Source: Selaginella tamariscina (Eukaryota; Streptophyta; Lycopodiopsida; Selaginellales; Selaginellaceae). Taken from it: a stretch of 64,000 bases of DNA. Below are positions 42,018 through 64,000 of this stretch, piece by piece (within the stretch, counting starts at the first letter, position 1; the number at the start of each line of letters is the position of its first letter). A model generated the notes under the pieces. That model searched no databases. It was given only the letters and a program-made list of their open reading frames with translations, and was not told the DNA's origin. A program made the translations under genes and the position numbers. The stretch covers positions 248,001 through 312,000 of the forward strand of contig PUQB01000079.1 in the NCBI GenBank assembly GCA_003024785.1, written 5' to 3'.

Positions 42018-42019
<2 letters not shown>

Positions 42020-43154
42020 ATTATTTTTATGTTTAACTTTATTTTTTTTAGTATTGAAAACACTGAAATTTATCCCAATTTCACACAAAATTAATTTGTT
42101 AATCTTTATATTTTGTACGATCTGTAAATTAAAAATAACTTTTTTATTTAATTTAGTTATCAATGAAGAATTATTTATTAACATCTAATTGAGTAATACT
42201 TTTAAATATATTATAAGAAGACATTAAAGATGTATGACATATCTAATTCTTATTAATTATAAATTTATAAGAAATTTAGTTAATATATTTACTTAAAATT
42301 ATAATAATATATAACTTTAATATATGTTTTGGTATAATATCTTCTAAGCTTTGAAAATGCCTTACAATTACAATTCAAAATTAAAAATAAATTCAATTAA
42401 AAATGCATTATGCTACTCAATTAGAATTTTATGATTTAATGTTGGAAAAACAAGTGCGACACATCAAATATTCTATTAATTAAATTAAAACAAGTACAAC
42501 TTTTTATTTAAGAGAGAGTAAGAATCTATCTATAAATTTAGTGTTTAAGAAAATTATAAGAAATGTGTGCATATTCATAATTTAAGATTTAAACTTGTTC
42601 TCAAAAAGATTTTATTTATTATTTTATTAAGTATTATTTATTGATAATTATTATTTTATCTCTTTTTAAATTATGCTATCATAAGCAATTAATTAACAAT
42701 ATATTGTTAGATTTTCTAAAGCAGTTATGTTTATATCTAAAAAACTACTGTATTTGAAAGGAAAATTGTAAAAAAAACTAATCATGTTTTGACTCATATA
42801 TAAAATCATTAACAAATTAATCTTTTCAATATATAAATTACATACAGTAGAGTTTTATAATATTTTTTTGGTTTTCTAACATTGATATAAATGAATGCAA
42901 AGTTGTCATATATGACAACATTACTATACAGACTGTATGTTATACATAGGTACATATAGTAATTTAAAATGTAATGTACTATACATATTATAAATATATA
43001 TATAAGTCTCTCCAATTAGAATATAACAGTGAAATATATAGATAAAATAATAATAAGACGAGTATATTATTATTATTTTATTATTTTTATTATTCCTATA
43101 TTTTTATTTACCATACCCTGTTTCCACTGCACGCATTTTTTCCCAGCTATATCC

Positions 43155-43955
43155 ATGGAAGAAACGCAAGCGACCATGCACATTGCAGGTGTTGATCCAC
43201 CAGACAAGCCCAGCAGTCGATCGAATTGGATCCTGAGGCTTCAATCCAGTGCACCGGCTGGTCCGAGGAGAACCCGACAGTCGGATTGTGCCGACGAGCG
43301 CTGGTGCAGGCGCAGAAATAGGAGCAATCTGTGGGGACGGGATACGTTCCTGATACCAAGAGGAGTCTCCTGCAGTACAAGCGACCGATACCAGTAGTGA
43401 AGAAGTGTTTCGTCTCCCTCCATACAGTACATTCCAGGATCAACAAGATCCCAAGAATCACCGTAACTGTGAAGGCCTTGCTTCGCTCCTCACACCTGTG
43501 ATATGTATGAGAAGATATAAAGGAGCATCATCCACAAGTGAGTGTTTAGTGCTAATTTAACATATTATAATTAATATCTTTTTCTTCCGTACAGATATGG
43601 ATAAAGATAGAATCCAACGAGAAGACATCCAGGTGAGCAATATAGAGTGTGATATATAGTTTATTCAACACACGCACGCACACACATACACATGCGGACT
43701 GAGCATGGAAGCTTTCAGAAAGGGGAGGTTTTTGTACATGAAGAGTCAGTTATCAGCAAGCCGAACTACAACAGAGGATTAAAGAACGAATGGATCAACA
43801 GGTGGAGCGATGATAATACCGTCTATGTTCCGAGTGCAGCTGCAATGGCTATTGTTGGTAAATCGTCCTTCGATTTACATTCCAATTCCTCATGGTCCAA
43901 CTCTGTTACTGCTTGGCAAGACGATGATCATCGTTTTGGTTCAAGTTTTCCGTAA
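43155..43955 (+). CDS. Unrecognised split gene
   Basis: I do not recognise the protein. The DNA changes abruptly from AT-rich desert to coding-like composition. An ATG at 43155 opens MEETQATMHIAGVDPPDKPS; the frame stays open to 43395, and another frame continues EEVFRLPPYSTFQDQQ to LLTPVICMRRYKGASS (to about 43532). Splice-like borders then define a small exon 43595-43632 (MDKDRIQREDIQ) and a last exon 43704-43955 reading HGSFQKGEVFVHEE, GLKNEWINRWSDDNTVYVPS, AAMAIVGKSSFDL and ending DDDHRFGSSFP at a TAA. At least one frame change is needed in the first exon. No domain, signal or membrane segment is evident. It lies 150 bp upstream of bL12c on the same strand. Confidence 0.5.
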
Positions 43956-44083
43956 TGAAATGCCATTTTGTTGCATCTAACCCGCGTGCGTGTGTGTGCG
44001 TGTGCGTGTGTGAGAGAGAATACATGGATGTTGACGTGGCGCAAGGAGGGTCCTGCATTTTGAGGATAGTGCCCATCAGCTAG

Positions 44084-44098
44084 AACCCTAAACCCTAG
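44084..44098 (+). promoter_or_regulatory. Telo-box upstream of bL12c
   Basis: AACCCTAAACCCTAG contains the AAACCCTA telo-box, about 10 bases before the ATG. Telo-boxes are common near the start of plant genes for the translation machinery, often in the 5' untranslated region, which fits the neighbouring ribosomal protein gene. Confidence 0.7.
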
Positions 44099-44108
44099 TC
44101 GCGCGGAT

Positions 44109-44670
44109 ATGGCTTCCGTCCAGGCAGCAGCGGTCTCAATTGGCGCAGCGCCACACAGAGAGGTACGCAATTCCCATCTCACCACAGATCCGTCGTCAAG
44201 AATCGCGACATTGAGGACGGGAACACTGCATTCTTTGAGTAACAGACGAGGAGGGTTGGTGCTCCGTGCGGCAGCCACAGACCTGGATAAGCTGGTTGAA
44301 GACGTAAAGAATCTGACGCTAGAGGAAGCGCGGCAGCTCGTGGAGAAAGCTAGAGAGCGCATTGGGTGTGTCTGCGTCCGCATTTGCGGCTGCCCCTGTA
44401 GCGGCTGGCGGTGGAGGTGCAGCAGCTGCTGAGGCAGCTCCTGCAGTGGAGGAGCAGACGGAGTTCGATCTTCTGCTCGAGGAGGTGCCCAGTAACGCAA
44501 GGATTGCAGTGATTAAGGCGATTAGAGCGATTACTAACCTTGGGCTGAAGGAGGCCAAGGATTTGATTGAGGGGCTGCCTAAGAAGATCAAGGAGGCTAT
44601 TGGCAAGGACGAGGCCGAGGAGGCCAAGAAGCAACTCGAGGCTGCCGGTGCCAAATGCACTGTTAAGTGA
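44109..44670 (+). CDS. RPL12: Chloroplast ribosomal protein bL12c, nuclear gene (one frameshift)
   Basis: bL12 (L7/L12) forms the flexible stalk of the 50S subunit that recruits translation factors; the plastid form is imported from the cytosol. From the ATG at 44109: a Ser/Thr/Arg-rich transit peptide of about 55-60 residues, the dimerisation region [28 protein letters not shown], an alanine/glycine hinge ([19 protein letters not shown]), then the conserved C-terminal domain [54 protein letters not shown] and stop at 668-670. A single extra base, most simply one G in GGG at 44364-44366, separates dimerisation region and hinge. Everything else is intact, with no stop substitution, and the gene is intronless as usual. 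I favour a sequence error or very recent lesion. Confidence 0.93.
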
Positions 44671-44769
44671 GCACCATTCTTTTGTTCGGTTGTCTGCGCA
44701 CAGGTCAGGTTGTGCCTTGTAAAATTAACAAAAGTACATGCTGGTTTTTTCCTAAGCACTCTTTCTCTA

Positions 44770-44979
44770 ATATATATATGTATGTATATGTATATATAAT
44801 ATATATATATATATAATATATATATATAGTAGGTATATATATATTATATATATTATATATTATTAGGTATATATATATATATATAGTAGGTATATCATTT
44901 ATACTTGTGTGATATGCTCACGCACACACGAAGTACTAGTGTAAGAATTTGAATAAGAATCATCATTATTCGTCTGTTG

Positions 44980-45022
<43 letters not shown>

Positions 45023-45035
45023 CACTCACACACAA
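44770..45035. repeat. AT-microsatellite cluster with TAGTAGGTATAT repeats
   Basis: Interrupted TA runs (44770-44890) containing several copies of TAGTAGGTATAT or TATTAGGTATAT, then (TA)n at about 44983-45012 and a CA stretch. Confidence 0.9.
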
Positions 45036-45847
45036 AGACTTTAGACCTGGTATATTGTGATTAAGTCAATAAGGTGCGTGTGTGTGTATATGTTGTGTTG
45101 TGTGTGTGTGTGCTTTTATTATTAAAAATTATTTGTCTTTTGACTTTTTATATTTTAAATTATTTAATAGATATATAAATTTTTGGTAATTTTCAAAATT
45201 TTCAGGGGAATATTAAATACAATAAATTTCATAGAATAATAAATAAAAATAATATACAGTATTGAGTTTCTGGATTTGGAAAAAAATGCTGTATTTTTTG
45301 AATTCCACCATGTCCGAGCAATCCAACGCAATGATGACACCTCGTGGGAGACATGATACGGCGGAACTAAACAAGCAACAGAACAACAAAGATATAAACA
45401 GAAAATAAAGGTATTGATATATAAAAGACAAATAGGTATAATATTATATAATTAAGTGTTAATGATAAATATGTAATATGTTTATATATAACCTTATATG
45501 AATGATATTTAATAATATAATATAATATTTAAATATGTTGCTGACATGTAACAGCACCGCCTGTTTCACCTAACAAACAACAGAAAACGAATATAACAAA
45601 TAAATTCCAAAAACAATTAAATATGTTTTTTTAAATTTTAATAAATTATTATTATATTTATAGACTAGCTGTAGATATTAAAGATAAGGTTTCTCAGGTA
45701 ACCAAGGAGATATCACATAGAATAATATCAGGGTCTCCCACTTGTGTGGAAATACAGATGGGCAGGCATCTTGGATTAGTCAAACCCCATTTTATTTTTA
45801 ATTAATTTCAAAATAAAAAAATAAAAACATTCAAAACTTTAATTTAA
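45036..45847. other. AT-rich intergenic DNA
   Basis: TG runs at about 45075-45112, otherwise no recognisable feature. A less AT-rich patch around 45680-45780 matches nothing I know. Confidence 0.5.
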
Positions 45848-46017
45848 GAGTCGTTTCGCATCACACTTAACTTAACTTAAGTGGACTTAAGTAAGGGAAA
45901 ATCCTTAACACAATCCCTTAATTTAAGTTAGCCTTAACTTGTGCAAATCAAATGCACCCTTAACCCTTACTTAATTTATGCGTGTTAAATTAAGTTAAGT
46001 GTAGTGCGAAACGACCC
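45848..46017. mobile_element. Tourist-like MITE (PIF/Harbinger type), 170 bp
   Basis: Terminal inverted repeats of about 30 bp: GAGTCGTTTCGCATCACACT at the left and, on the other strand at the right, GGGTCGTTTCGCACTACACT. They continue into CTTAACTTAA on both sides. The element is flanked by TAA on both sides (45845-45847 and 46018-46020), the 3 bp duplication expected for PIF/Harbinger elements. No coding capacity. Confidence 0.85.
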
Positions 46018-46020
46018 TAA

Positions 46021-46805
46021 ATCCTTTAAAAAAAACATTGTACCTATTTTAACAATAAATAAATGTGTATATATAGGCTTGTACAACCTGATTTCAAAAA
46101 ATTTCCCACCCTGCAACAAGCAAAAGTCTCTCTCCTATATCTATGTTCAGAGGAATATACCAGAATATGCTATGGATAATGCAAAAGAATTCCTATTGTG
46201 ATTATTAAATAAAAGGTATAAAAGCATTTCTTTCAATGAGCCGCTTTACCCTTTCCCCTTAATTAAGGGCAAAGTTACAAGCTAGCTTGTTATAGGCTTG
46301 TTTGGGTTGGTCCTCTGATATTTTCTGTGTCAATCCATGTGAGAGCTGAGCTTTCCCTTTCACAAACACCCTTGTGCTACCCTTCACTAAACCTTTGCCC
46401 TTTTATCCTGACCCAGTCAGACTAGTGTCTTATAAGTCATATATATTTAAATATATATGATTTGATCTGATCCCATTATATAATCCTTCGTTTTTGAGTG
46501 TTTTTGTTTTGTCTTCATATTGAATGAAACAGATCCATAAGATCCATGTCTCAAAGATAGAATATCTTCTAAATATGTGTTATAACAAAGGTTTCCCCTT
46601 TTCTTTTTATAAGGCTTTCTTTGTCAAACAAAGGGCAGACACTGAACAAGGGTACAATCTAAAAGGGTTAAGGGCAGCACCCTTTTATTTTTTTCCATGA
46701 ATCATGAATGCCCTTGTTGAGATCTATAAAGAATCACTGTTCTTGCCAAGCTGCTCATTCAAACACATTGGTATCTTGGAAGATTAGTGCGTGTTTAACA
46801 AGATA
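46021..46805. other. Probable promoter region of the LPTEWTY gene
   Basis: No coding sequence. It contains many AAGGG/CCCTT words and a TATATAAT-like word near 46477. Placement as promoter is inferred from the ATG at 46806. Confidence 0.4.
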
Positions 46806-47850
46806 ATGAATAATTTTAAGGATTTCTCCATGGATTCGACTGAGGAAGACGATGATTTTGTTGCTGGGCTTGTGGAACAGATGGCTCATTCTATGCTTGA
46901 TGAAGGAGATGAAGATGATAAATGGCTGCCCATTTCTTCAGAGGTACATTCATTTTCTGCACATTTCAAGCATTTGGGTAGTGTATATATGTGCTATTCT
47001 CTATTGGGTTGTGCTCGCATCTCGTTTTTGCATACTGGGTTCTTCAGGAAACAGTATAGTTCGTAAGATTCTTTCATTCCTGTGCATGGGGAAAGCCTTT
47101 CCCGTGTTCTTAGCATCCCAGATGAAACAATGAGCCAATATTCTGATCAGTGGGTTTCAGGAGAGAGAGAGAGAGAGAGCGAAGCTCAAAAGCTCGCATT
47201 CTTTCAATATATACATACATTTTGCAATAGTTACTGAACAAATCTCAGAGAACTTTCCCCTTTATTCCGGGGAAAGTCTTTCGTATCCTAGATAGAACAG
47301 AGAAAACCCAACAACGACCGACCGCTTTCCCCTTGTTCCAGTGTGTTTTTTCACATGCCGGATAAGTCTATTTGGGCATTAGTCTAATAGAGTGTTTCAC
47401 AAACCCACAGAGAGAGAGAGAGAGAAGCATTGTCCGACACACACTCACACATGCACGCACGCACTCTGGGTTGTGTATATAAATTCGATTAATGCAGAGG
47501 AGGAGCTGGAGCTCTACAAACACAAGTCCAAGTCCGGCAGTGTCACCACCAACGCCACTCCATCACTTGAACTACGAAGCACAGAACGATGCGTGGGAGT
47601 TGCTTCACATGGCAGCACAGGAAGTGATGAGGTTGAAGATGGGTACCACTGCACCTTCTCCACACATCCAATCTTCAGCATATCGGCAAGTTGAGATTTC
47701 GCCAGCAGTGTACAGTGACGTTCAACCGGCTTCTACCAGGCAAGTTTGTCCTCCTGCATTTGGACAACACGAATGGAAGCAGAGAAGTACTTCTCAAAGG
47801 CATCCCACCTGCTTCCAGGTAATAATATCATATACATATACATATGAGTC

Positions 47851-47895
<45 letters not shown>

Positions 47896-48147
47896 GAGTC
47901 AATTGCAAGTTTCACATTGAACAGGTATAAAAGTATTTTTTTTAGGTGTTTTGTGTATGTTAGTCCTCGTACATTTACTTTTACAGCTTTAGTTTAAACA
48001 TTGCTAGTCGTTATCTGCTTAACTTATTATCCAACTGCCAATATGTATATAATATTCTAGTTTGCATATAGCAGTACCACGTACAGATGTATGTATGTAT
48101 ATATTATACTTCTGTACATGTGATTGAACAAGGATATTTTGTTTTAT

Positions 48148-48195
<48 letters not shown>

Positions 48196-49607
48196 TTTTT
48201 GTTTTATTTAAGAGGGGGTCGCACATTTTGCTTTTACAGCTTTAGTTCAAACATTGCAGGTGTAAGCTATATATATATACCCACCGACTTGTACGCGACA
48301 ACATATAAGTAATATTTAGTTTACCTTTCAGAATACTCTTTATGTAGTTTGCTTTACATGATTCTGATTCTGTTACACGTAGAGACATATGTACATACTA
48401 TAGGTGTATATGCTGTTTAAGTTTAAATTTAAATGTATGCTTTATGCTTACAGCCTTTTGATGTGTTTTTTAATTTAAATTGTTACTTTTATGTTGCTAT
48501 ACCCAGCTTTATTTAATTTATGACGGTGTGTGTGTGTGTGTGTGTAACATAGTTAAATTCAGCAGGTTGCTTTTGTATAACTTAGTAAAAGCATTCATTG
48601 ATTGTGTGATATATGATATCAAATTAAATATTAGATTATGATATTTATGTGTTTTTCTTGTGTGTGTGTGTGTGTGTGTGTGTGGAGAGAGAGAGAGAGA
48701 GACGTAGCACATTGTAAACATTGTACTTTGCTTAACAGAATCAAGTGGCAAACCAAGGATTGCGTGGAACAGGCGACGAATATTCCAGCAGCAACAGCTG
48801 ATACAGCAGCAAGTGAGACAAATCGCAAACCGTAATCTGCAGCAGCATCCAACGGCTGGGAATCCACCTCACAGACCGACAACAATGCATCCTGTCGCTT
48901 GTTCCCCGACAGCAGGTATGCATGTCGGCTGTTCCCCGACAGGGACAAATTCTCATCATTGGAACCCGGTCAATGCGGTCAACGGGAGTGGTATGAGGGC
49001 TGTGTTCTTAAGGGGTCCCGGTTTTGGTAGTAGTACTTCTAATGGGACTGGTGTTTTTCTCCCTCAAGCTACTAATAATGCTCGAGAGCCTAAACGTAAA
49101 CCTTGTAAGTTTATACTCTCGTGTATATACGTCATATATTATACACATATGTAACACACAGTATGTACCATAGTATGTGTGTTTGTGCGTTTAATTTACG
49201 ATTTATATATTTTTATGTATTGCAAATGTAAATAATTGAAGTTCGTGTGTACAGCTTGCTCTACGGTTTTACTTCCTTCACGAATAGTTGAAGTTTTAAA
49301 TCTTAATGTGGACGAATTACAATACCAACCTCACTCAGTACAGCCAACTAATGGTAGGCATATATATAATATATGCATAGATACAGTATTAGATACACAC
49401 ATCATACACAGACACATACACATACACACATACACATACAATATGAATGCATATATATGTATGTATTATTATTGTAGTTGTTCAAGGCGGTGGCGATGGG
49501 GATGATTATTTAAGTGCTCATCTTTCCAAGTCATACTCCGCATGCTCTCCAACTCGTGGCACCATTCTGCAGCAGAGCACGCCCTCCCCACGGAATGGAC
49601 TTACTAA
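46806..49607 (+). CDS. Plant-specific protein of unknown function ending LPTEWTY
   Basis: Five exons: 46806-46943 (acidic FVAGLVEQMAHSMLDEGDED), 47498-47818 (SP-rich, then NDAWELLHMAAQEVMRLKM), 48739-49104 (PRIAWNRRRIFQQQQ, GSGMRAVFLRGPG, GTGVFLPQA), 49255-49353 (SCSTVLLPSRIVEVLNLN), 49488-49607 (ending LPTEWTY, stop 49605-49607). I know this motif order (acidic helix, AW.LL..AA.EV.R.KM, Gln-rich segment, GSGMRAVFL, GTGVFLP, CSTVLLP.R.VE.LNL, LP.EWTY) from a family of uncharacterised plant proteins; biochemical function is unknown to me and the composition suggests a nuclear, largely disordered protein. Two frame problems exist: the exon 2/3 junction does not join in frame, and exon 5 needs a one-base shift (near 49570-49580) to reach the LPTEWTY end. 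Introns 2-4 are rich in CA, GA and TA repeats. Confidence 0.72.
48150..48193. repeat. (GA)n microsatellite in intron 2 of the LPTEWTY gene
   Basis: About 21 GA units. It sits inside an imperfect tandem duplication of about 245 bp: the segment CTTTTACAGCTTTAG...AAACATTGC occurs at about 47980 and again at about 48229. CA runs (47857-47888) and a TG/GA run (48661-48701) flank the intron. Confidence 0.9.
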
Positions 49608-50371
49608 ATTAAAGGCCTTTAAAGTTTTTTTTAAAGGCCTTTAGATGTTTTAACGGACAAGTTTACCTCAGGTTTGCCTCCTTTGTATATATTAATAATA
49701 TGAGGAGAAACATCAAAGGAGATTGATTTTTACTTTTTTTATTTTATAAAATTTCTACTTTTTTTTTACTTAGTGAGATGGATAAGAAGGATTTACTTGA
49801 TTTTGTATGATAACATACCAAATAAGTGAACTTTATGTTCTTGTGTTATTTTTAATATAATTTATATATAATGTTCCCGAAATTAAATAAATAATTTAAT
49901 AATTATTGTAATTTCAAATATTAAAATACACTGAAATTTTAATAATAGTCTGGATTGCATATTATATTATTAACTTATATATTATGAGTTAAAAATTAAA
50001 AAAATATGTCATTTCTTTTACATTTGCTACTATGATATTTTTTAATATTTAACACTTGTTGAATTTCATACAACATATGTTATTCAAATAAGAGGGAAAA
50101 ATATAAAATTTACCACCCAGCATATTCAACATATATACATGGAATATACTCTACTGTTCACTCTTTACATTAGGGCACACGGAGTGCAATGTACTGATTT
50201 GCGATGGCGTACCCGTGATCCTTTGGCAAATTGCGTGTGCCGAACACACCAGGAAGCGCTCTACTCCAAGATCTATCCGGTAAGCAGCACAATCTCTCTC
50301 CCTCTCTTTCTCTCTCACATTGAAATCTCAAATGCAGTAATTAGATCTTGGTGGGGTTGATCACAGATCCA
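49608..50371. other. AT-rich intergenic DNA; possible first exon of the PILS gene near 50140-50280
   Basis: 49620-50100 is AT-rich without features except an AAAGGCCTTTA repeat at 49611-49641. From 50139 composition becomes coding-like, with a donor-like CCGGTAAGCAG at about 50278-50288, so a 5' exon of the following gene is possible but its protein match is not recognisable. Confidence 0.4.
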
Positions 50372-51696
50372 ATGGAGCTGAGGCTGATGATGGAGCAACT
50401 CATACTGGGGTAACCTCCGCGAATGGCTCTCAACCAAACATATTGGGACCCGTGGTGCCCGTGTTGAAGATCATGAGCATATGCATGGTCGGCCTCGTAC
50501 TGACGCACCCGAAGATCGCAGTACTCAACCCGGAAGCCTGCAAAGTTGTGTCAAAAGTCGTCTTCGCCCTCTTCCTGCCATGTCTGATCTTCACTGAGCT
50601 CGGTAAGTCGGTGACACCCAACAACATGCGCGAGTGGTGGTTCATACCGGTGAACGTTCTCATCAGCTATGCTGTGGGATGCCTTTTCGGCTACTTGGTG
50701 GCGCTTATTTGTCGTCCTCCACCGCAGTTCTTCCGGTTCACCGTCGTGATGACCGGTATCGGAAACACAGGTAACATACCGCTGTCGATAGTGCAGTCGA
50801 TCTGCCACGGATGGAACCCGTTTGGTAAGCAGTGCAAGCAGACCGGTGTTGCCTATGTGTCATTTGCACAGTGGATAGCGGTTATCATAGTGTATGTGTT
50901 CGTATACCACATGCTGGAGCCTCCGAGGGATTATTACTGTTACTCGGACGAGATCAACTCGGTTGAGGAGGGCGCCGGTAACAGAATGCCGGACTTGGTA
51001 GAGGCGGAGTGGCCGGGGTGAAGTCGGCGGCCACCGAGGAGATGCGGACTCCCTTTCTGAGCAGGATCTTCCGTCTGTCTTCCTTCAGCGACCAGCCTAC
51101 GAGCCCACCGTCGGGCGACCGTATCCGGTGTCTGGCCGAGCCGAGAGTAGTGAGAAAGATGAGGATGTAGCGGAACGGACCCCGCTCCAGCATATGCTAC
51201 AGCCGCCGACTGTTGCCTCTCTCCTGGCAATACTGGTTGGATCCGTCCACGGACTGAAGTCGATAGTCTTTCGGCTCCGGTGCGCCTCTCGAGTTTTTCA
51301 CCGACGGTTTAACTATCATGGGGAATGCGATGGTGCCATGCATAATGCTTGTGTTGGGAGGGATGTTTTCTGTCGGACCGGCAAAGTCTGAGTTAGGACT
51401 GCGTACCACAGTGGGGATTTGTGTCACCAGATTGGTGTTGCTGCCGGCAGTCGGGATCGGCATTGTGGTTGCGGCGGGGAAGCTTGGGTTCCTGCCCGAG
51501 GGCGACAAGATGTTCCACCTTGTGCTCCTGCTCCAGCACACCATGCCGAGCTCCATACTCATGGCGGGACTGACGAGTCTGAGGGGATACGGGGAGAAGG
51601 AGGCGTCGTCCGTGCTGTTCTGGGCAGCACGCCTTCTCCCTCGTCACCATCGCAGCATACATTGCGGTCTTCTTCAAGTATATAAGCTACATCTGA
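50372..51696 (+). CDS. PILS (PIN-LIKES) auxin carrier, PILS6-like (frameshifted)
   Basis: PILS proteins are 10-helix carriers in the endoplasmic reticulum that limit nuclear auxin. The frame reads GPVVPVLKIMSICMVGLVLT, VVFALFLPCLIFTELGKSVT, MREWWFIPVNVLISY, VVMTGIGNTGNIPLSIVQSIC and TGVAYVSFAQWIAVIIVYVFVY (to about 50910), then a central loop. The second half in other frames: LQPPTVASLLAILVGSV, GAPLEFFTDGLTIMGNAMVPC, ELGLRTTVGICVTRLVLLPA, KLGFLPEGDKMFHLVLLLQHTMPS, GYGEKEASSVLFW, and a tail FSLVTIAAYIAVFFKYISYI ending at 51694-51696. Four one-base shifts occur (near 51015 in GGGG, about 51110, 51277 in TTT, 51624 in GGG). No stop substitution is needed. The start codon is upstream and not fixed. 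LPCLIF and WWFIPVN point to the PILS6-like branch. Confidence 0.88.
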
Positions 51697-51929
51697 ATGT
51701 TTTTGCCCGTTTTTAAGAACGGATTATTACTAAGTGTAACACACTGTAATCAAAATAACTTCTTTATTATTTTTGCTCAAGTAATATCGTGTGTGCGCGC
51801 GTGCGTGTGTAGTATGCACATACAGATATATGGATATATGTGTATACATGTGTGTGTGTAATGTCTATATAGTCCATTCATTGAAGGAGTATGCTCTGCG
51901 ATTACAGGTGTCGTTATAATCGTTGTGTG

Positions 51930-52135
51930 TGTGCGTGTGTGTGTGTGATATTTGCTAATTGGATTGCAGTTACTAGGCACTTCTCCTTTGTTGGTTGCCA
52001 CACCTGCAAATCCGGACGATTAGGTGTGTAAAGCTACACACTTCTGTGTAGCGTGTATATATTTATATATTATATTCTAACAAAGCTATCATATTAATAC
52101 TTAAGCAGGAAGTTATATGTGTTAACTTTTAAGTT
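51930..52135 (+). pseudogene. NAOD exon 2 relic (direct copy)
   Basis: The words GATATTTGCTAATTGGAT, CTCCTTTGTTGGTTG and GCAAATCCGGACGATTA, followed by the donor region and TATCATATTAATACTTAAG, match in order the intron 1 end, exon 2 3' part and intron 2 of the intact NAOD gene (58715-59035). About 125 bases of exon 2 are deleted, the tryptophan codon before the donor has become a stop, and exon 1 is absent. It lies 230 bp after the PILS gene, the same order as in the second copy. Confidence 0.85.
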
Positions 52136-52853
52136 TGAAATGAATGTTTACATACTAAAGTAAGCTTCATTAGGATGCTCTTAATCAGCTTAACTGGGAG
52201 TTTAGTATGATCATTATGTTTAGTGTAGTAACTAAACTCGCCAGTGTTTAACTTGCTATGCAGAATAGCCACGGGTGCTGCAAAAGCTGGAAGTGCGACT
52301 AATAATCTCTGGGAACTTAACCGGTCCTTGTTACATGGAACCAAACTCATATCCAATACCTTGGGTTTGCTCCCCAGTGCACGTCTACGTGTACATACAC
52401 AATCACGCACGCACTCACAACATATCTCTAGAACACAGTCAAGGGCCAACTCCAGGAAAGTGTAACCATCCCACAGCCCAAATCCCAGCTACCACAGTCA
52501 CACAGGCCACCTGACCTCCACCGGTCGACAATGCCCCAGGACATTCCTGGCCAGTAGCGTTTCCCGCTACGGTGTTTATAATAAAAAAATAAAAACTATT
52601 AACAACTGCTCTTACTTACACTGTGTCCCTGCTGTGCTCTTTCATTACCTACACAGTAAATCAGCACACACACGTATATTACTCAATATACTGTATGTAC
52701 TTGATTTAAATGTGTAATGCTAAGAATGTAATTATCTATGTCTGCATACGTGCTTCTCTCTCTCTACCCACACGCACGTTCACACATGGATAGTGTACAG
52801 CGGCGATGTTATTTCACCTCCCTAAGGAATGGGATGAACGTTTCTATCGTGAA
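52136..52853. other. Intergenic segment at an inversion boundary
   Basis: Left of here sequence matches the second block in direct orientation, right of 53225 in inverted orientation. 52250-52560 is less AT-rich and has coding-like composition (WELNRSLLHGTKLISNTLG in one frame), but I do not recognise it. GT/CA-rich words occur around 52760-52800. Confidence 0.4.
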
Positions 52854-52924
52854 GCACTGCTGGTCTAGTGGTAGAATAGTTCCCTGCCACGGAACAGACC
52901 CGGGTTCGATTCCCGGGCAGTGCA
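52854..52924 (+). tRNA. trnG-GCC: tRNA-Gly (GCC)
   Basis: A 71-base cloverleaf: acceptor stem GCACTGC pairs with GCAGTGC, D-arm TGGTCTAGTGGTAGA, anticodon stem GTTCC/GGAAC around loop CTGCCAC with anticodon GCC at 52886-52888, T-arm CCGGGTTCGATTCCCGG, discriminator A. It reads glycine GGC/GGT codons in the cytosol. Internal A box (52861-52871) and B box GGTTCGATTCC (52903-52913) are intact, and CCA is not encoded, as expected for a nuclear gene. It looks functional. Confidence 0.97.
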
Positions 52925-52928
52925 TATC

Positions 52929-52934
52929 TTTTTT
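52929..52934 (+). terminator. RNA polymerase III terminator
   Basis: A run of six T residues four bases after the tRNA end. Confidence 0.85.
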
Positions 52935-53224
52935 ACCATTTTGCAAAATACTCGTGGCACCAAGGTTTATATCACACGTGTGCAGAAACAGTTTTCTGCT
53001 AGTTTTCGGGTATATATCAGAGCACGTATTCAATTAAGCATCACGGAGTGTGAGTGCGTGTGCCGGTGTACGGATATGCAGAGCGCATGTGTGTGTTTGT
53101 AAGTGTGTATTTATACAGGAACAATGACGATAAAGTTACAAGTAGTTTTTTATGTTAAACAAGATGGAGTGTTTAAAATAAGAAGTAATTCATGTTGTTA
53201 TACATAAACACGAGTAGTGTTTGA

Positions 53225-53595
53225 ATGTACACATTAGAAACAGCGTGTGCATGCGTGCGTGTGTGTGTTGAAGCCAAACACGACAGTTTTCTGTGCATCT
53301 TTAACACTCTCTTGCTCGGACAAAACTCGAGGCTCCTGGCCGATCCACATCCGAGAGTAGCGGACCTGTTCGTGATAGACCGTTGCCTGCAATGCCCTGC
53401 AGCTGCTATGAGATGCTGGTGGAGTGACGTCGAGAATCTGCCAAGCGACCAACCTGGATACATGGAATATTGCATTCCCCCTCATCGATCACGAGCTTCG
53501 AGCTCGACACTAACAATTAACTGTCCAGATCATCCAGAGATCTCGGAGTGCGAACAACATCCGGTTGAGTGCATCTCGCAGTACGTTTTATATAG
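53225..53595 (-). pseudogene. DUF3527 gene relic, inverted copy
   Basis: The minus strand matches, in order, parts of exon 1 and intron 1 of the DUF3527 gene at 62750-63200: GAGATCTCTGGATGATCTGG, TATCCAGGTTGGTCGC, GACGTCACTCCACCAGCATC, CTCTCGGATGTGG, CCAGGAGCC and TGTTTGGCTT, then the CA-rich start of intron 1. Small deletions and shifts prevent any product. Confidence 0.85.
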
Positions 53596-53764
53596 AGAGA
53601 GATTGCTACGCATACGAATCCTCACATTGTTTCATCGTCACTCACAGACGATGTAGAATGTCATGTAAGCAAAGTATATTCATATCAGGAAAATTAATAT
53701 AATGCAGCATCGCACGTTCCAATGATGCTTGAACAGTCTTCTTTTGATATTATATTGTCTAAGT

Positions 53765-53825
<61 letters not shown>

Positions 53826-54465
53826 TTAGCACATCGTGAACCTACGCCCTTAAGTTCAAATTTAAGGGTTCCCGTTAAAAAATGCGTAATTCTATAAAGC
53901 ACCACGTACCAACTACATAAGAGCAAGACCGTAACCTAAACAATAATATAACGAGCGGACGCTGCACACATGCACATATGCACGCTTGCTCATACGTCTA
54001 CGTGTATGTAATAAACTTCATATTTTCAAACTCTAGGACCATATTTTATCTAAATGGGATGTTCATCTAATTCATTAATGAACGAACTTCCATGTAAATG
54101 CTTTCTTTATCAATTTATTAAGTAAATTAATTAGTAAATTCATTTAAATTTATTAATTCATGGGACATTCACTTAAGCAATTTAAAGCATTTTTACAGAG
54201 TTGATTCAAAGAATTTTTATAAAAATAATATGTGAAATTTGAAGGCTATTTAGATAATTTTATGTAACAGCTCATTCTCACACAGACGCGCTCGCGTTTC
54301 TGTGTGTACACCGGCGTACTGGATATGTCAACATCATCCATACAATACACGCTAGAAAGCACTCGAAGGATTTATATACAGTTGCTGTCTGTACATAAGA
54401 TCTAATACAAAAAAAATGTGTGTGTGCGTGCGTGTGGTGTGTGTGTGAGTGTGAGTGAGTGAGAA
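53596..54465. other. Decayed inverted copy of the NAOD-DUF3527 intergenic region
   Basis: Short matches to the reverse complement of about 61100-62700 (for example GACATTCTACAT near 53650) suggest it belongs to the inverted block. It contains TA/GA repeats (53767-53821) and AT-rich filler; no gene. Confidence 0.45.
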
Positions 54466-54469
54466 GAGA

Positions 54470-54583
54470 GAATGAGACATACTTTAATCCATGACGGAAA
54501 GCACAAGAAAACTATGGTGAAAGTTGTTCGCTCAGTACACCAGAAACTGCCAGATTCATCGAAACAAACAATGTACAACACTG

Positions 54584-54631
<48 letters not shown>

Positions 54632-55112
54632 CTATAAAGCATTTAGTGTATGAATAGTTACTTCTTTATTACACATACGTATAAATGTACAGTATACTTA
54701 TACATCTACACCTGTCAGATGATACCCGACTTCTACATGGACACATATGTGTGTACAATACACGCTAACGATAAATACAATACGACATCAGACCTACAAT
54801 ACACACAAGTTCGAAAGCACATATCGGGGGGAGGTTTTTACCAAACATTCTCGTCAAATCCTTCGTCCTATTAAGAAAAATGTTAATTTTACCATGTGTA
54901 TATACGCATGTGATAATGTGTCAACACGCACACATGTATACACACACACGTATGTACATATACGTACCTTAAGCCTTCCTCAAGTAAAATGTAGTTGTCT
55001 ACAGGACCTCTCCAAGCTCGTCAATATTCGCATTAATGTCCTCAACGTAGGCTTTGATTTTCTTAACCACGTCCTTCACACTGACCGATTGGACTTCTCT
55101 CTCTCTCACGCA
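54470..55112 (-). pseudogene. NAOD 3' relic, inverted copy (exons 9, 11, 12 and 3' flank)
   Basis: The minus strand of 54970-55085 matches exon 9 of NAOD (GAAGGACGTGGT, GACATTAATGCGAATATTGAC, GGTCCTGTAGACAACTACAT). 54785-54895 matches exon 11 and the start of exon 12 with their intron (AATAGGACGAAGGATTTGA, TTGTAGGTCTGATGTCG). 54475-54680 matches the 3' flank of NAOD around 60900-61120 (TTAGTGTATGAATAGT, AACATTGATATATA-type words). Exon 10 and parts of exon 12 are deleted. Confidence 0.85.
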
Positions 55113-57559
55113 CGCACGCACACGCACACGCACACGCACGCACGCATGCACAACTGAACTTGTAAAACGGAATTACGATACATGTTGTTAGACATTTTAA
55201 AGTTAATTGTATGTCTAGATTATAAACTTTATTAACAATGTCATTTGGGAAGTTCTATAATCAAAACATCTTTTTGTATTACTAAACAAACTTAGTGCAC
55301 GGTTCAATGTTGGTGGATGCCTTAAGAAGCATGAATGTTGAAAATTTATAAGGGTTTCAATGGCTGCAAATGCAACACACAACACTACCAATGAGGATGG
55401 CGAGGTGTCCCTCATATACACGTCACGCATAGTATTGTTCAGTGATATATGCCGTAGTAAGAAAATGCTACAGATTAGTAATTAAATTAAATTAGTAATT
55501 AGATTAATAATTAAACATTTCTGTAGATTTTTTGACTACGGATTTAATCACTAGTATTGTTAAGTATCTCATTTTTTTAAACATGATGAAATATGACTGT
55601 TTTTTTAAGAGATTAAATCTTATAAAAGGAGAGATTAAAAACATTGCAAGTAATTGAGAAATGTGGAGATGTAAAAGATATTGTGAAATAATAAATTAAA
55701 TTTAAAAAACAATTTATATATCATGAAGCTACTAAAAAACCTTGTCTTTATAATATAACTTGTAAACAAGGGGATTAATAGTAAATTTGATAGAAATAAA
55801 TGTGTGTTATAGATTAGAGAAGAACAATATATTTTATGAGATGGCAATGTAAAAATGTTTTCCTCACATGGTTTTAAGAATAATTGTTTTTCATTATAAA
55901 TTTTCTAGGGTTAAATCTTAATATTAATGCAGTTACACTAAAATACATAGAAAGAAATTGACTGGTTTATGAGGTCCAAGGGCATACAGAAGGCATTTTG
56001 AAATTTAATATGTATGTATGTTAAGTAAGCATTTAAGGATCTTTTAAAGCCTTAATAATTAACTTGAGAAATAATTGAAATATATACATATAAGCTTATA
56101 TGTGCACTTAAATTTGCAGTTTATATTTGATCACGTTCATCTATAATTATAACTATTACACAAAGGTTTTTTTTTATATAACAAATGAAAAAGTAATTAG
56201 GCATACATATACATTGTGAAAGAATATATTTTTTGGGATTTTGAGGAGTATTCTTCAAAGTACATAGTGATACATTAATGCAGATCTGCTTAGACACCAC
56301 ACAGTGTTTTTAAATGAAAAAATCATTAATAATGAATGCTAATAAAGAGTATATTGATTTCTTCTTTGGGCATATGCAATAAAGATAGTGGTAATCATTT
56401 GAAATTACTTATTTCATTTTTTAATCTTAATGTGATTCTTTAACACCTTTAATATAAAATTAGAGCATATATAAGAATATTTTAAAGGTATGGGTGTTTG
56501 TTTTTATGAAATAAAAGAAAAATGTAGTTAAGACACATGAAAATTATTTTTTTAGTTAAGTACTTTGTTACAAAAAGCTACATGTTTTATAATCTATATA
56601 ATTGTTATTTAATATAATTTTGATGATAGTTTTATTTATAAAGATTAAGAATTTAAAATAATGAACATTATGAGTGGGTTGAGATAATAATGATGATGAA
56701 GACAAAGTTTAATGAATTCATGTTTTAATGCTTAAGAACATGAATAATGTCTCTTGATTAATAAGATATTAATCACAAGATTGTTATTGATAATAAAGTG
56801 AATTGTTAAAGTATTTAAAGTAGTTACCGAGTATTTTAAGGAAAAAAAAAAAAAGGCTTTAACAAAAATATTTGAGAGGTACAAAAAAATTTACTTAAAC
56901 ATCTCTTATAATAACCAAAATCAAAGGTATTTATGAAGCTGACATTTGTTTTTACATATTTGCTAATTAAGAATTAACAATGATTATTTTTTATCAGCAA
57001 CCATATAAACAAATTTAAAACTAATAAAGAATTTACTCAAAAACATATTTAAAATGACGAACTTAAAATTTTTGAAACAAATAAATTTTTTACTTAAGAA
57101 CAAGTTTAAATGATAAGCTTAGAAATTTTAAAACAAATAAAAAATTTATTATGTTCAAAATAATAGACTTATGTGAAGTAAGTTGTTAGGCATAAAATTA
57201 ATTAAAGACACTGATAATGGGGTTGAAGGTAACATAAATTAATTAAATATTCAAATTATTAAAGGAACATGACATAAAAAATTATAAATTAATGTCTTTG
57301 TTCATGCTTATTAGTCCGAAGTTCACTTAATCACATGTATGACATTACAAGATCCCTTAAATATTAATTACTTATGGCAATTTATTATATGTACCATTTT
57401 ATAAAAGGCATTAGAAGAGTGACAAGCTGTTAAAGTAATTATGTTATACATGTTAGTAAGTTGGTGATTATATTATTATTCATGATTATTAAAAATATAG
57501 GTGGAGTATTTAACATTGATGATTATTAAAATACATTGGTGGTTAGAATTGTAATGTGT
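55113..57559. other. AT-rich intergenic DNA, no recognised gene
   Basis: CA/CGCA repeats at 55105-55148, then AT-rich DNA with many stops. A minus-strand patch at 55215-55430 has slightly higher GC but no family match. Confidence 0.5.
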
Positions 57560-58345
57560 GATTCAACCCAAAAGTATGCAAAGTTGTGTTAAAATTTGTA
57601 TTCAACCTCTTCTTACCACATTTGATCTTTATTAAGCTTAACAAGTTAATAACACCCAACAACATGTGGAAATGGGGATTTATACTAGTCAACATGTCAA
57701 TCAATTGTAAAAGTATTATCTTTTTTTTATTAACCATAAAGACAAGTGTTATAAAAAAGGTTTATGTGTTACTTAATTGAGTGACATATAATTTACATGA
57801 GTGACTCTCACACTTTGTGGTGCTTATTTATTGTACTTCATTATAATTTTTTTGGTTCATTATAACATATCATGTCTAACTAAGTTAAGGGTTGTGAGGA
57901 AGACAAAGATTATGTTTAAATGCACCTTACTTCAACATATGTTACAATAATTCATTGTTACCTTGGATATGTGCATAGAATCTTTAGCTCTAGTGCAACT
58001 CTCAAATTATTCATTAGACAATCTAATTATCCCAAAATTATAAAAAAAATGTTTCGTTATTATTATTATTATTGTGGGGAATGTGATGATGGTATGCATA
58101 ATAATTGCTATTGAACTTACAAAGTCTTAATTAGTACTACATTAAATCTACATCACTAGATTGGTGTTGCTACTTGTACTTGGGGTATTCATTACAGTTG
58201 CCTCAAGAAAGCTTGAGTTTTTGGGGGACAAGATGTTCCACCTTGTATACCATGTTGAGCTCAAAATGGGGTCTGATGAATCTCAATAGATACAGGGGAA
58301 GGAGGCATTGTCCTTGCTGTTCTCATAACATGCCTTGTAATCAAT
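57560..58345 (+). pseudogene. PILS carrier relic, second copy, GC-to-AT decayed
   Basis: Aligns to the PILS gene at 50522-51640: the first stretch reads CKVVLKFVFNLFLPHLIFIKLNK then ITPNNMWKWGFILVNM (57575-57710). 58074-58330 matches GGGGAATG-GATG-T-TGCATAAT, CACTAGATTGGTGTTGCT, GACAAGATGTTCCACCTTGT and GGGGAAGGAGGCATTGTCC. Most differences from the first copy are C to T or G to A changes; there are also deletions and stops. It lies directly upstream of the intact NAOD gene. Confidence 0.88.
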
Positions 58346-58461
58346 TCTTATTTTGAGCAATCGTTTAGGTTAGTACTCTGTTTTGGGGTTTTTAAATTTA
58401 GAGTACCCTGTTTAGGGTCAGTTTAATAAGCTTAATTAGACCCTAGAACAGGGTGAAGACA

Positions 58462-60754
58462 ATGGGCATGGGAGTGGAGGGTGTGAAGGCGCTGCAGCTG
58501 GACGATGATGCGTTTGTGAAGCTGCTGGGTAAGCTGATCGGCGAGGCCAAGCATTTGCAGAACAATCCTCCGGAATTAATCCCTCAGGAAGATCTGGCTG
58601 CCAGGTACAGATGTGCGTGAGTATTACTTTGATTTATTTATGTTCAAACATAGACATTACACGCGCATACGTATATCCCGTGTGTGTAAAACACCTTGGA
58701 CTGGTGCGCGTGCGTGTGTGTGTGATTTGCTAATTGGATGAAAGTAACGAAGGCACGTACTTGAAGTCCTCAATCCGCTGAGTACAACAAATGGAGGGCC
58801 ACTGACTGTGAAACATGTGAGCCATGCACAAGGCAGAGGCAATCTCATCATCGAGTATCCAGGAACTGAGCCTGGAAAGGTTGTCTCCTTTGTTGGTTGT
58901 CACATGGATGTTGTCACTGCAAATCCGGACGATTGGGTATGTAAATCTTATAGGTATAACATGTATATATTTATATTTATAGAATTTAAGATTCAAACTA
59001 GATATCATATTAATACTTGAGGAACAAGTTATACACACGTTGGACTCCTTTGTTTATGCAGGAATTCGATCCGTTTAGTTTGAGCATAGACGGTGACAAG
59101 CTTCGAGGTCGAGGAACAACAGATTGTCTAGGCCATGTTGCTCTTGTGACTGATCTCATGCGGCAGCTTGGAGAGAAGAAACCCAGGTATGTATGTGTGT
59201 CCACACATGATTTTTATTTTTTCACAATACATATTATGTGTATTTATAGTTTAAAAACAACTGTGGTGGCTGTTTTTATTGCGAATGAAGAAAACTCATC
59301 CGTAGTTGATATCGGAGTGGATGCTCTTGTCAAGGATGGACTTTTAGACAACTTGAAGAACGGTCCTTTGTAAGTGCTCTTTATATATATTTGTGTGTGT
59401 GTGTGTGTTTACATACATAATGCTGCATATAGATATATACAGGTTGCATTTACAGGTTTTGGATTGACACAGCTGATAAACAACCCTGTATTGGCACCGG
59501 AGGCATGATCTCATGGAAGCTGACTGCACATGGAAAGCTCTTCCATAGTGGTCTTCCACACAAGGTGAAGTTATCTTGTGTGTGGGTTTTTTTTTGGGGG
59601 GGGGGGGTTAATCAGTTAACTAGCATTGCTAATACATAATAAGTAATGCAGGCAATTAATCCACTTGAGCTTTGTATGGAAGCCTTTAAAGAGATTCAAA
59701 TACGGTTTTATGCTGATTTCCCTGCTCATCCAAGCGAGAAAGTGTATGGTTTTGCAACACCATCCACAATGAAGCCTACACAATGGATTTGTAAGTTATG
59801 ATATATATATTAGTCGCCTAATAATTCCTGTGTTTAAGACCCTGGAGGTGGAATTAATCAAATTCCTGGAGAGTGCACCATTTGTGGGGACTGCAGGTTC
59901 GTTGAATATTCTTGTAAAATTGAAGAAGTATACATACAAGTATTTTATAATGTCTAACAACGTTTATCGTTTTTTGATCAGGATAACTCCGTTTTACAAG
60001 TAAGTTCACTCATTTCGGTTGTGTATGTGTGTGAGAGACACACACACACACACACACACACATCTGTGTTTAGTGTGAAGGACGTGGTGAAGAAAATCAA
60101 AGGATATGTTGATGACATTAATGCGAATATTGACAAGCTTGGAGTCAGAGGTCCTGTATCCAACTACATTTTACCGGAGGAAGGTTTAAGGGGAAGGTAG
60201 GTGCACACATATATACGTACAGGCATTTATGTACATATGTGTCTATAGATTAAGTGTATAATATTGTTTTGATTTCTTATACAGACTAGATATACAATTC
60301 GATGAGATGATGATGTCCGGCGTTGCATGTAACCTTGACTCCCCAGGCTTTCATGCATTGAAGAAAGCCACTGAAGAAGTTGTTGGCGTGTGTAAACCAT
60401 ACTCCATCACGGGCTCACTCCCATTAATCCGCGAGTTGCAGGTAAACATATACAATACATACACACGCATACATATATATAGTGCGTGTCTGTGTTTTTC
60501 TCTATACGTCCGACCTGGCACAGCTTGTCCGATATACATGGTAACATTAACATTGTTCTTAATAGGACGAAGGATTTGATGTACAGACAGCAGGATATGG
60601 TAAGAAAGTTTGGTAAAATGCTCTCTTACGTGTGTGTATTGTAGGTCTGATGTCGACATACCATGCTCGTAACGAGTACTGCTTGTTGTCCGATATGAGG
60701 CAGGGCTTCCAAGTCATGGCCAGTATTATTTCTCAACTAGAAGAGCCCTCTTAG
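58462..60754 (+). CDS. NAOD: Acetylornithine deacetylase (M20 peptidase family), intact
   Basis: Removes acetate from N-acetylornithine to give ornithine for arginine and polyamine synthesis. Twelve exons: 58462-58604, 58753-58936, 59062-59186, 59250-59369, 59456-59564, 59652-59790, 59839-59896, 59982-59999, 60074-60196, 60285-60441, 60566-60599, 60645-60754. They sum to 1320 bases, 439 residues plus stop, matching the usual plant length of about 440. All introns are GT-AG. Metal-site motifs: HMD (residues 98-100), RGTTDCLGH with D130, EEN (164-166); also FHSGLPHK, GGINQIPGECTICGD, GVACNLDSPGFHALKKATEEVVG, and GLMSTYHARNEYCLLSDMRQGF near the C-terminus. Exon 8 is only 18 bases. No transit peptide is evident. 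Several introns are dominated by TG, CA and TA repeats. It is the only multi-exon gene here with no frame problem. Confidence 0.96.
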
Positions 60755-62264
60755 AGGTACGTATTGTATTTTGTCATTAACGTATATTGTACACACCTAT
60801 ATGTGTCGTGTGTAAGTTGAGTATCTTCTGACGGATATTGTCTGTATGTATGTAGTTTTATAAATGATACATATTGACATATATACATATATGTACGTAT
60901 GTGTAATAAAGAAGGGACTATTCATACACTAAATGCTTTATAGTGATACTATACTATATATATGTATATATCAGTGTTTGTACATCGCTTGATGTGATGA
61001 ATGACATTATATTCCATCTGGCAGTTTCTATACGACCCTGGTGTACTGAGCGGACATGGAGATGCAACTTTCAACATAGTTATCTTGTGTTTTCCGTCAT
61101 GGATGAATAAAAGTATGTCTCACACACACATACGTGTATACTGGTTTTTCTTTGTGTATTGTACATGGATACATGGATTATGTACAGACAGCAACTGTAT
61201 AAAAATCCTTGGGAGGTGCTTTCTAACGTGTATGATGTTGACATCCATACACCTTCCAATACAGTACTCTGTATTTGTCATTGTGTATGTACACAGAAAG
61301 AAACGCGCGGAGTGTGTGCGTGCGTGTGTATGTGTGCGAGAGAGAGACCTTTTGTCTTACGTAGAATAATAAATGTACTCAAACGGTGTACATACATATA
61401 TAGGCATAGTGTTGCGTACATTACGCACGCTCGGTATAATGTACACCGTATATACACAGTGGATAAATACATTGCTTGTGTTGACGACATCAACATTATA
61501 TACTACATGTGGTAGGTCTTTGTAGGTTTTGTATACGGTCTTGCTTTTTTTATAGTTGGTACATAGTGTTTTAATAGAAATACGTACATTCGACGTACAT
61601 ACTTAAATATATCCCCCGTTAACTTTACCTTTAGCGTGTAGGTTTTTTCAAAGCTAGTTTAGTGCACCTCACGATGTACTAAAGTCTATGTGAGCATCAC
61701 CGTATCCTGATTGAACATCGTGCCACGTCACTCGCCACGTCGGTGCGGAATGCCTGCGTGGCATTACACGTCATCATTGTTAATCATGCAATTCTCGGAT
61801 ATAATGCTTTCATTTCCCAATGTGCATCGATTGCTTTCGGCGCTATCTGTGCGAGATGACATTCTACATGGGGGCTCTGTGAGTGCTTATCAATTCAACA
61901 ATATGAAGATTTATAGACTATGGGTATGCAATCTCAAATTCGAGTATAGAGGCATTTATTGAGTGACAAGGGGGCTCTGTATGTTTCCTTATAAGAAGCT
62001 GGCATGTTACAGTTCTTTCCAAGTCTGGATGTACAACAGATATGACCGTTTGAGGCATTCTTGCTGGATTCAGGTATAATGTGTGTTTGTTATTCACAAG
62101 AAGGGGATGAATAATTGTCACCAGTAGTAGGAGGGGTGCATTTTTATCCTCGAGAAGGGTAGGAGACAGCGCAACTGTGTCAGGTGACACACCGTTTTGT
62201 CTGCATCACCTAACTTACTTGTGTTTTTACTCTCACAGTACTGACTGAGTGGTGAAAAAAAACA
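60755..62264. other. Intergenic region between NAOD and the DUF3527 gene
   Basis: 60760-61500 is rich in alternating TA/TG words and has an inverted counterpart at 54330-54680. A GCCACGTC direct repeat lies near 61725-61741 and may be promoter-related. No coding sequence recognised. Confidence 0.5.
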
Positions 62265-64000
62265 ATGCCAGCGTCTGCATCGAAAGCTCCAAGTCCACAT
62301 GGAGTAAGATACAGCAGTGCGAAGAAGAACGGGTGCTCGCTAGGGAGCATTTTCGACAGCCCGGCTGCTTTTGAGGACTCACTCGACAGGAAGAAGATCG
62401 ATTTCTGTAGCAGAATCGACATGCTGGAATGCCAGATCAGAAGCATGGACACATGGGTCGGAGAAAGCAGAACGACTTTCCAGAAAGTGGCCCATTACAG
62501 AGATTCCGACTCCACTTCGGACCGTGCGAAAGCGCCTCGGACACGGACAAGGAGGAGCAACAGTGAAAGCAGCTACAATCCGTCTACAACAGTGATCCCC
62601 TCGTGTAGAAGGAGGCTTGAGTTAGATGTTCCAGTAGCAACCGTGCCTCTTCTGGATGACTGCGAGATCTTCTCGGACAATTCGAGGTCTGGTAGAGACG
62701 AGTGCATGGAAATGGATTTCATGGGAACCGGATCTACCGCGGATTGTACTCGACATACTCCTTCGCCATCTCTGAGATCTCTGGAGGATCTGGACAGCTC
62801 AATCGGCAGTGTGGAGCTCGAACAGGAAAGCTTCTCAAGGGGGCGGTCACTGAGGGGAACGCTGAGAGACGGGCAGTATTCCGTATATCCAGGTTGGTCG
62901 CGCTCTTACAAGTCGCTCTCCCAGGAGAATGGCAGATTCAGGACGTCACTCCACCAGCATCTCGTAGGGCAATGCAGACATCGCTCCACTGCTCTCGGAT
63001 GTGGTTCAGCCAGGAGCCTTAAGTTTTGTCTCAGTACGAAAGCTCTCAGCAGTGTTGAAGATGTAAAGGCTCCATTGTTAAAGCCACAGAGAACTCTCAC
63101 AAAGCACTTCCTGGTCAAGTGTATCCAGAAGGGAATCAAGTGTTTGGCTTGTAATGGTAACACACACGCACACACACGCGCACACACTAATGTGTATATG
63201 TACCAGGTGTGTTGCAGATTGGGATACCGAGGTTGCACCAGATGGTACTTCGCAAACCGAGGAAGTTAGTCTTTGGGAGGGGAAATAAGAGTGTCTCTGA
63301 GGTTGCAACGGTTCAGTCGTCACAGAGTAACTCCTGCCAAGAAACTACTACATGTTTGATCGGTTATCTTCAAGGTATTGTCAGGCATGGTGTCACTAGC
63401 TACAGCTTTTGGATGGATGGTCTTAATGAGGTGTTTGTCGCCAAGTTCTCAAGGTATTCACACACACACACACACACACACATTGTGCACTACATAAAAC
63501 AGCATCTCTCTCTCTAGTTTTGATGTTCTTATTTAACATAAAGCTACTTTTAACTTTGTCGTTGTCACTATCATAGTTATAGTCATTGTCACTGTTATAC
63601 ATAAAACAACCTCTCTTTCATTGAAATATACATCAAAGCACACTTACAAACGTACACCCACACACGCACACAAGTCAGTTAAAATAATATACTGTTGCTG
63701 CTGGTATAGTTTAACTAAACACCTGCTCTGCGATATGCCCTGTCTGTGCATATGTTAATCATGTTAAAAAAAAGAAAAAGTATTATGATATATATACACA
63801 GGGAGCAGCAGAAAACTGTTTCATTCTACACCTGTAAGGGCAAGGAACGATCAACGTGGCGGCACAGGATGAAGACGCGTGTGGTGAACCTGGTGGGAAC
63901 GATGAACTTCGGGTGCCACGTGTATTCGGAGGTAGACTCCAGAGGCAAAGTTATGCACTACATGGACTCGGAGTTTACCTTGTTTGATGAGAAGCAGGAG
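62265..64000 (+). CDS. DUF3527 domain protein, partial (runs off the window)
   Basis: From ATG 62265, exon 1 (62265-63156) encodes a serine/arginine-rich, mostly disordered N-terminus (MPASASKAPSPHGVRYS, RSLEDLDSSIGSVELEQE, TLTKHFLVKCIQKGIKCL). Exon 2 (63218-63453): DTEVAPDGTSQTEEVSLW, then after one shift VRHGVTSYSFWMDGLNEVFVAKFS. Exon 3 (from 63802): QQKTVSFYTCKGKER, RVVNLVGTMNFGCHVYSEV, MDSEFTLFDEKQE to the window end. The pattern G...Y.F.....EVFVAK...(short intron)...SFY..K, VVG.M..., .EF.L.D is that of plant DUF3527 proteins, whose biochemical role is unknown. The exon 2 shift is best explained by one extra G in the GGGG run at 63279-63282. The introns start with CA-rich repeats. A broken inverted copy lies at 53225-53595. 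Confidence 0.78.

Follow-up and report, generated by a model that had tools for sequence, protein, structure and literature searches.

In reciprocal gene loss after duplication, two copies that arose in one event each lose different members, and silenced plant duplicates and transposons are subject to methylation-associated C>T decay. Both patterns are relevant to a 64,000-nucleotide stretch of the Selaginella tamariscina genome (contig PUQB01000079.1, positions 248,001 to 312,000 of the forward strand, assembly GCA_003024785.1; hereafter the window), in which a PIN-LIKES (PILS) gene, an N-acetylornithine deacetylase-like (NAOD) gene and a DUF3527 gene occur in two neighbouring blocks, A and B. 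Different genes have decayed in each block: NAOD and DUF3527 in A, PILS in B. We consider that a single tandem duplication, followed by an inversion in block A and by deamination-type erosion in block B, probably accounts for this arrangement (probability about 0.8, judged from sequence comparison). The locus resembles reciprocal gene loss in that two copies of one event have lost different members, and differs from it in that the copies are adjacent and linked, with the same losses on both haplotype contigs where these can be read. Among the titles listed by our search of the literature on linked reciprocal loss with inversion and on methylation-linked duplicate decay, none matched closely, which is not a claim that none is in print.

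The window, with a GC content of 37.7%, is part of contig C1159 in an assembly of 300,702,823 bases and 1391 contigs. A review table lists for S. tamariscina a genome of 150 Mb and a PacBio assembly of 300.73 Mb made with Falcon, with 37.4% GC (PMC8558194), and both haplotypes appear to be largely present in the assembly. A 123-kb contig, C1055, fits the second haplotype of the locus. Within the parts of C1055 retrieved, it is colinear with positions 36838-52281 and 54863-76937, differing from the window contig by 293 substitutions in 37,098 aligned columns (0.79%) and by 241 indels, 153 of them of 1 bp. Coordinates above 64,000 are on the scale of the window and fall in the next 20 kb beyond its end, which were added for comparison.

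Two copies of a PILS-NAOD-DUF3527 block

The features of the two blocks are as follows.

50372..51696, plus strand: PILS-A, a PILS2-like gene taken as the kept PILS copy (PF03547 in two pieces; identity with C1055)
51929..52117, plus strand: NAOD-A exon 2 relic in its original orientation, with an internal deletion (pieces at 71% and 89% against 58704-59033)
52118..52175, no strand: inversion junction interval, where the NAOD intron 2 side is joined to the DUF3527 3' flank (match ends; C1055 alignment through 52281)
52176..53548, minus strand: DUF3527-A relic, inverted and heavily deleted (minus matches to 62770-65564)
54345..55241, minus strand: NAOD-A 3' exons and downstream flank, an inverted relic (minus matches to 59906-61233)
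55700..58399, no strand: CpG-depleted, AT-rich island around PILS-B (0 or 1 CpG in each of nine 300-bp bins, where 2.3-9.7 would be expected)
57500..58345, plus strand: relic of PILS-B with C>T/G>A erosion and approximate limits (alignment to PILS-A, substitution counts)
58462..60754, plus strand: NAOD-B, a complete 12-exon N-acetylornithine deacetylase-like gene of 439 aa (open frame, M20 domains)
62265..64000, plus strand: DUF3527-B, the first part of a gene running to about 65611, beyond the window (PF12043; exon pieces open in C1055)

Comparison of the window with itself yielded 13 matched pieces at E<=1e-3. Plus-strand matches link the PILS copies (50525-50655 with 57563-57693, and 51424-51621 with 58153-58323) and NAOD exon 2 (51929-52117 with 58704-59033), and minus-strand matches link the 3' part of NAOD together with its downstream flank (54345-55217 with 59929-61233) and DUF3527 (53127-53548 with 62770-63562). 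Similarity thus spans all three genes and their non-coding flanks (54345-54398 at 89%). An initial annotation, made from the letters of the window, had proposed the duplicated block and a self-comparison on both strands that should reveal colinear similarity beyond the coding pieces; such similarity is present in the flanks, although part of block A is reversed, and the gene order of the two blocks agrees once the inversion is undone. The two blocks stand as proposed but their limits move outwards, block A (given as 50.4-55.1 kb) covering 50.4-55.24 kb and block B (given as 57.5-64 kb) starting at 57.5 kb and reaching about 65.6 kb, outside the window.

Divergence between the blocks was counted only in columns with identity of at least 0.55 over 41 columns, the rest being dropped. 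Transversions are equally frequent in PILS (36/465) and in NAOD exon 2 plus the inverted segment (115/1545; Fisher p=0.84), which indicates a common age, so that a single duplication suffices. The earlier claim of a duplicated block is borne out by this equality and by the coding and flank matches, which support the interpretation that A and B are products of one tandem duplication. From a K80 distance of 0.161 in the same thresholded columns and a substitution rate of 1.3e-8 per bp per year, as quoted in PMC5750206, the duplication would be roughly 6 million years old. The true age is probably greater, since the estimate leaves out divergent columns and includes coding sequence.

The inversion in block A and the erosion of PILS-B

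The inverted match forms one segment, linking A 52118-55241 to B 59906-65682 with an alignment score of 1829, against a maximum of 788 in five shuffles. It is strong up to 52176, with a weak extension to 52118; the plus-strand match ends at 52117 and the strong minus-strand match begins at 52176, which places the junction within 58 bp. Contig C1055 contains the same junction, and the inversion is therefore older than the split of the two haplotypes. A PF12043 match survives in the DUF3527-A relic (52458-52532, minus strand, E=7.5e-4). That block A holds only fragments of NAOD and DUF3527 had been recognized beforehand, and the relic pieces agree with it; the inversion that broke NAOD-A had been missed.

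The relic of PILS in block B, also present in C1055, had likewise been described as decayed, without mention of the deamination signature that it carries. With A as the starting state, C>T/G>A changes outnumber the reverse class by 80:8 in PILS, compared with 53:53 in the rest of the alignment (p=4e-10); the ratio was 93:12 over 513 columns when the PILS region was aligned earlier. The C>T rate per site in PILS is 0.52 at CG, 0.32 at CHG and 0.21 at CHH, and 0.15, 0.10 and 0.06, respectively, in the rest. The ratio of observed to expected CpG falls to 0.09 over 57480-58460, compared with 0.92 in PILS-A and 0.98 over 51700-55217, and in the first bin past the island, at the start of NAOD-B, the CpG count is back to 11 against 15.9 expected.

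The order CG > CHG > CHH matches that expected for cytosine methylation, suggesting that PILS-B itself has been methylated. In this order and in its CpG depletion PILS-B resembles the methylation-associated C>T decay of silenced plant duplicates and transposons; it differs in that the excess is seen in PILS-B alone among the three genes, and the methylation invoked here is deduced from base changes. Intact long terminal repeat (LTR) elements of S. lepidophylla are reported to be highly methylated at CpG and CHG but relatively little at CHH, and gene bodies to be unmethylated (PMC5750206). The CHH rate in PILS-B is higher than this LTR methylation pattern would predict.

Retained genes, rival explanations and neighbouring features

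PILS-A matches the Mem_trans domain (PF03547) in two pieces (E=7.2e-42 and 2.2e-23) and is devoid of the introns present in a relative on contig C1015. These two traits, domain and apparent lack of introns, make up its likeness to the PILS2 subfamily of PIN-LIKES, which are putative auxin carriers; a frame change near 51,010, common to both contigs, sets it apart. The lack of introns had also suggested a lineage-specific retrogene, an idea dropped on the report that PILS2 genes are single-exon in Selaginella and angiosperms (PMC3470039). PILS-A is 99.4% identical to its C1055 counterpart, with five substitutions and five private 1-bp gaps in 1663 columns, and an ATG opens its frame at the C1055 counterpart of 50372. 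Two aligned stretches, picked by hand, contain 26 sites at which the A and B residues differ; the distant C1015 PILS has the A residue at 15 of them and the B residue at none, so PILS-A was the constrained copy. The initial annotation called this gene well preserved, which holds for its domain but not for its frame in the window, broken by single-base gaps.

NAOD-B, by comparison, is intact as had been claimed, its 12 exons encoding an open 439-aa frame with matches to Peptidase_M20 (PF01546, E=7.1e-23) and M20_dimer (PF07687, E=2.4e-14) in residues typed from the gene. The Pfam domains identify the M20 peptidase family only, and we take the enzyme to be an N-acetylornithine deacetylase. Its C1055 counterpart has one private 1-bp frame break, in exon 9. 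Compared with a second NAOD on contig C771, NAOD-B has a nonsynonymous divergence (dN) of 0.31, the synonymous value (dS) not being computable. DUF3527-B exceeds the PF12043 cut-off of 25.9 bits in both contigs (C1159:313132-313224, 33.8 bits; C1055:24618-24911, 72.3 bits), with a second match at C1159:313354-313488. The gene claimed for block B is present to the extent that each of its five exon pieces, taken singly and not spliced, has an open frame in C1055; in the window contig the frame has two breaking 1-bp gaps, near 64,000 and 65,138, and a compensating pair near 65,363.

Several observations weigh against the history that we favour. Single-base breaks private to one contig interrupt the frame of PILS-A four times in the window copy and once in the C1055 copy. 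To these is added the change near 51,010 that both contigs have, for which an error common to the two, a short intron or a true lesion would each be an explanation; on paper, 21 GT-AG pairs of 41-140 bp preserve an open frame there. PILS-A could therefore be dying too, and it counts as kept only if the private breaks are assembly errors and the shared change is harmless. Were PILS-A a young pseudogene, both PILS copies would be dead, only NAOD and DUF3527 would survive and no complete set would be divided between the blocks. We regard this as unlikely: private 1-bp breaks of the same kind occur in DUF3527-B of the window contig and in NAOD-B of C1055, and 1-bp indels are as frequent relative to substitutions between the contigs (153 of 241 indels, against 293 substitutions) as expected from a long-read assembly. 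Assembly error, which probably explains the private gaps in PILS-A and DUF3527-B, is the simplest account because all three genes have such gaps and single-base indels predominate. PILS-A also retains a normal CpG content and the residues of the distant PILS. The C1055 sequence is N over 35001-37500, hiding the counterpart of 52282-54862 in the middle of block A.

Deletion and base composition raise further objections. No counterpart of NAOD exons 3-7 scored above shuffles on either strand of 51700-58400 (the nearest candidate, exon 3 on the plus strand, was equalled by 3 of 30 shuffles), nor did any of exon 1 on the plus strand of 51700-51990; sequence was thus also lost, and the inversion was not clean. 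These missing exons, and a PILS without introns, would suit genes copied one by one, on separate occasions or as retrocopies. Such separate events are highly improbable given that introns and intergenic flanks match between the blocks, that transversion divergence is equal, that a tRNA gene was copied along, and that single-exon PILS2 genes have been reported in Selaginella and angiosperms (PMC3470039). The direction of change, in turn, takes block A as a stand-in for the ancestor, and with polarity so assigned and PILS-A GC-rich (0.557), PILS-A might have gained GC instead of PILS-B losing it. This we find scarcely probable, as CpG is near zero throughout the 55.7-58.4 kb island, beyond PILS-B itself, PILS-B shares no residue with the distant PILS at the 26 differing sites, and reverse-class changes are less frequent in PILS (8/465) than in the rest of the alignment (53/1545). 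CpG is also low within NAOD-B, in the bins at 59300 (4 against 12.2 expected) and 59600 (3 against 11.4), so depletion is not limited to the island. On balance we retain one tandem duplication with inversion in A and erosion in B.

The gene copied along with the block, which the initial annotation had also missed, encodes tRNA-Gly.

52854..52924, plus strand: tRNA-Gly (GCC), block A (ARAGORN; Rfam RF00005, 58.7 bits)

Its block B counterpart (64375-64445, 56.4 bits) lies just past the window, antisense between DUF3527-B exons, and is identical at 70 of 71 positions; the sole difference is the first anticodon base, so that B reads ACC, on both haplotype contigs. Against the 14% of counted columns that differ in the inverted segment overall, one difference in 71 suggests that both tRNA copies have been conserved or converted. 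A 35-base pattern allowing up to two mismatches, which would miss more divergent tRNAs, matched 50 times in the genome, 48 with GCC and two with ACC, the latter being the two haplotypes of the B copy. One review calls tRNA-Gly(ACC) universally missing (PMC8007984), and another source counts 767 database entries (PMC6720975). That duplication freed the gene to change its anticodon, making the B copy a working tRNA-Gly(ACC), seems to us very unlikely from its sequence; a new pseudogene is the likelier reading. The copy offers a test of why the ACC isoacceptor is rare. Elsewhere, tRNA-Gly(GCC) genes form arrays on contigs C661, C394 and C909, many about 2.1-2.5 kb apart.

A repeat resembling a miniature inverted-repeat transposable element (MITE) lies some 200 bp past the right-hand limit of the inverted segment.

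55440..55553, no strand: near-palindromic, MITE-like dispersed repeat of about 115 bp (inverted termini; genome copies)

It has at least 43 matches outside the locus and C1055 among the 40 of 725 candidates scored. Within the same candidates, no transposon other than this 115-bp repeat accounted for 55280-57480, the remainder of which matched itself and C1055 only. The DUF3527 3' end recurs, with tRNA remnants, in two more partial copies at 74977-76838 and 82571-84000 (the second inverted), which are 80% identical to block B and, in two pieces, 88.5% and 96.6% to each other. A pair of minus-strand paralogues at 35107-36405 and 73059-74464 (41% aa identity over 171 residues) presumably belongs with ARIADNE-type RBR ubiquitin ligases. 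The region 37001-43000 is very AT-rich (GC 0.14-0.25).

Proposed history of the locus

A PILS2-like gene, NAOD and DUF3527 with its intronic antisense tRNA-Gly would have been duplicated once, in tandem. An inversion in block A, equivalent to about 5.8 kb of block B and with one end inside NAOD, would then have split NAOD-A and reversed its 3' half together with DUF3527-A; the deletions seen in both relics probably came next. PILS-B would have joined the AT-rich, CpG-poor island and undergone deamination-type erosion, presumably through methylation, as NAOD-B, which starts about 120 bp downstream, retained its coding frame. The genes kept at the locus today would be a single PILS in block A, with a single NAOD and a single DUF3527 in block B.

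The complementary loss after segmental duplication that had been proposed is upheld, with one event and with the partner of each decayed gene better kept in the other block. By our arithmetic it is also what chance would produce, the expectation being 3/4 for three independent random losses and 1/2 if NAOD and DUF3527 went together in the inversion. The further idea that one functional set is shared between the blocks agrees with the complete NAOD-B and with the open DUF3527-B exon pieces in C1055, and is weakened by the conditional retention of PILS-A and by relatives of all three genes elsewhere. A second NAOD, matched over nearly its full length, lies on C771, a third contig, C744, has part of one, PF12043 matches above the cut-off occur on C91, C704, C136 and C455, and PF03547, pooling PIN and PILS, matches seven contigs besides C1159, C1055 included; the gene set of the locus is thus not unique. 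Among the matches listed, PF03547 and PF12043 share a contig only in C1159 and C1055.

No alternative losses indicative of divergent resolution were found on the two haplotype contigs of this one assembly, C1055 sharing both the PILS-B relic and the junction. Because the blocks are linked and the losses in C1055 are the same where readable, hybrid incompatibility by way of divergent resolution does not follow. The locus records, unusually clearly, an ordinary fate of duplicates. As a compact example that carries its own date, it would show one duplication being resolved along two routes a few kb apart, a gene-breaking rearrangement and a methylation-type erosion that spared the coding frame of a gene some 120 bp away, with equal transversions across the block as a built-in control for measuring the excess of C>T.

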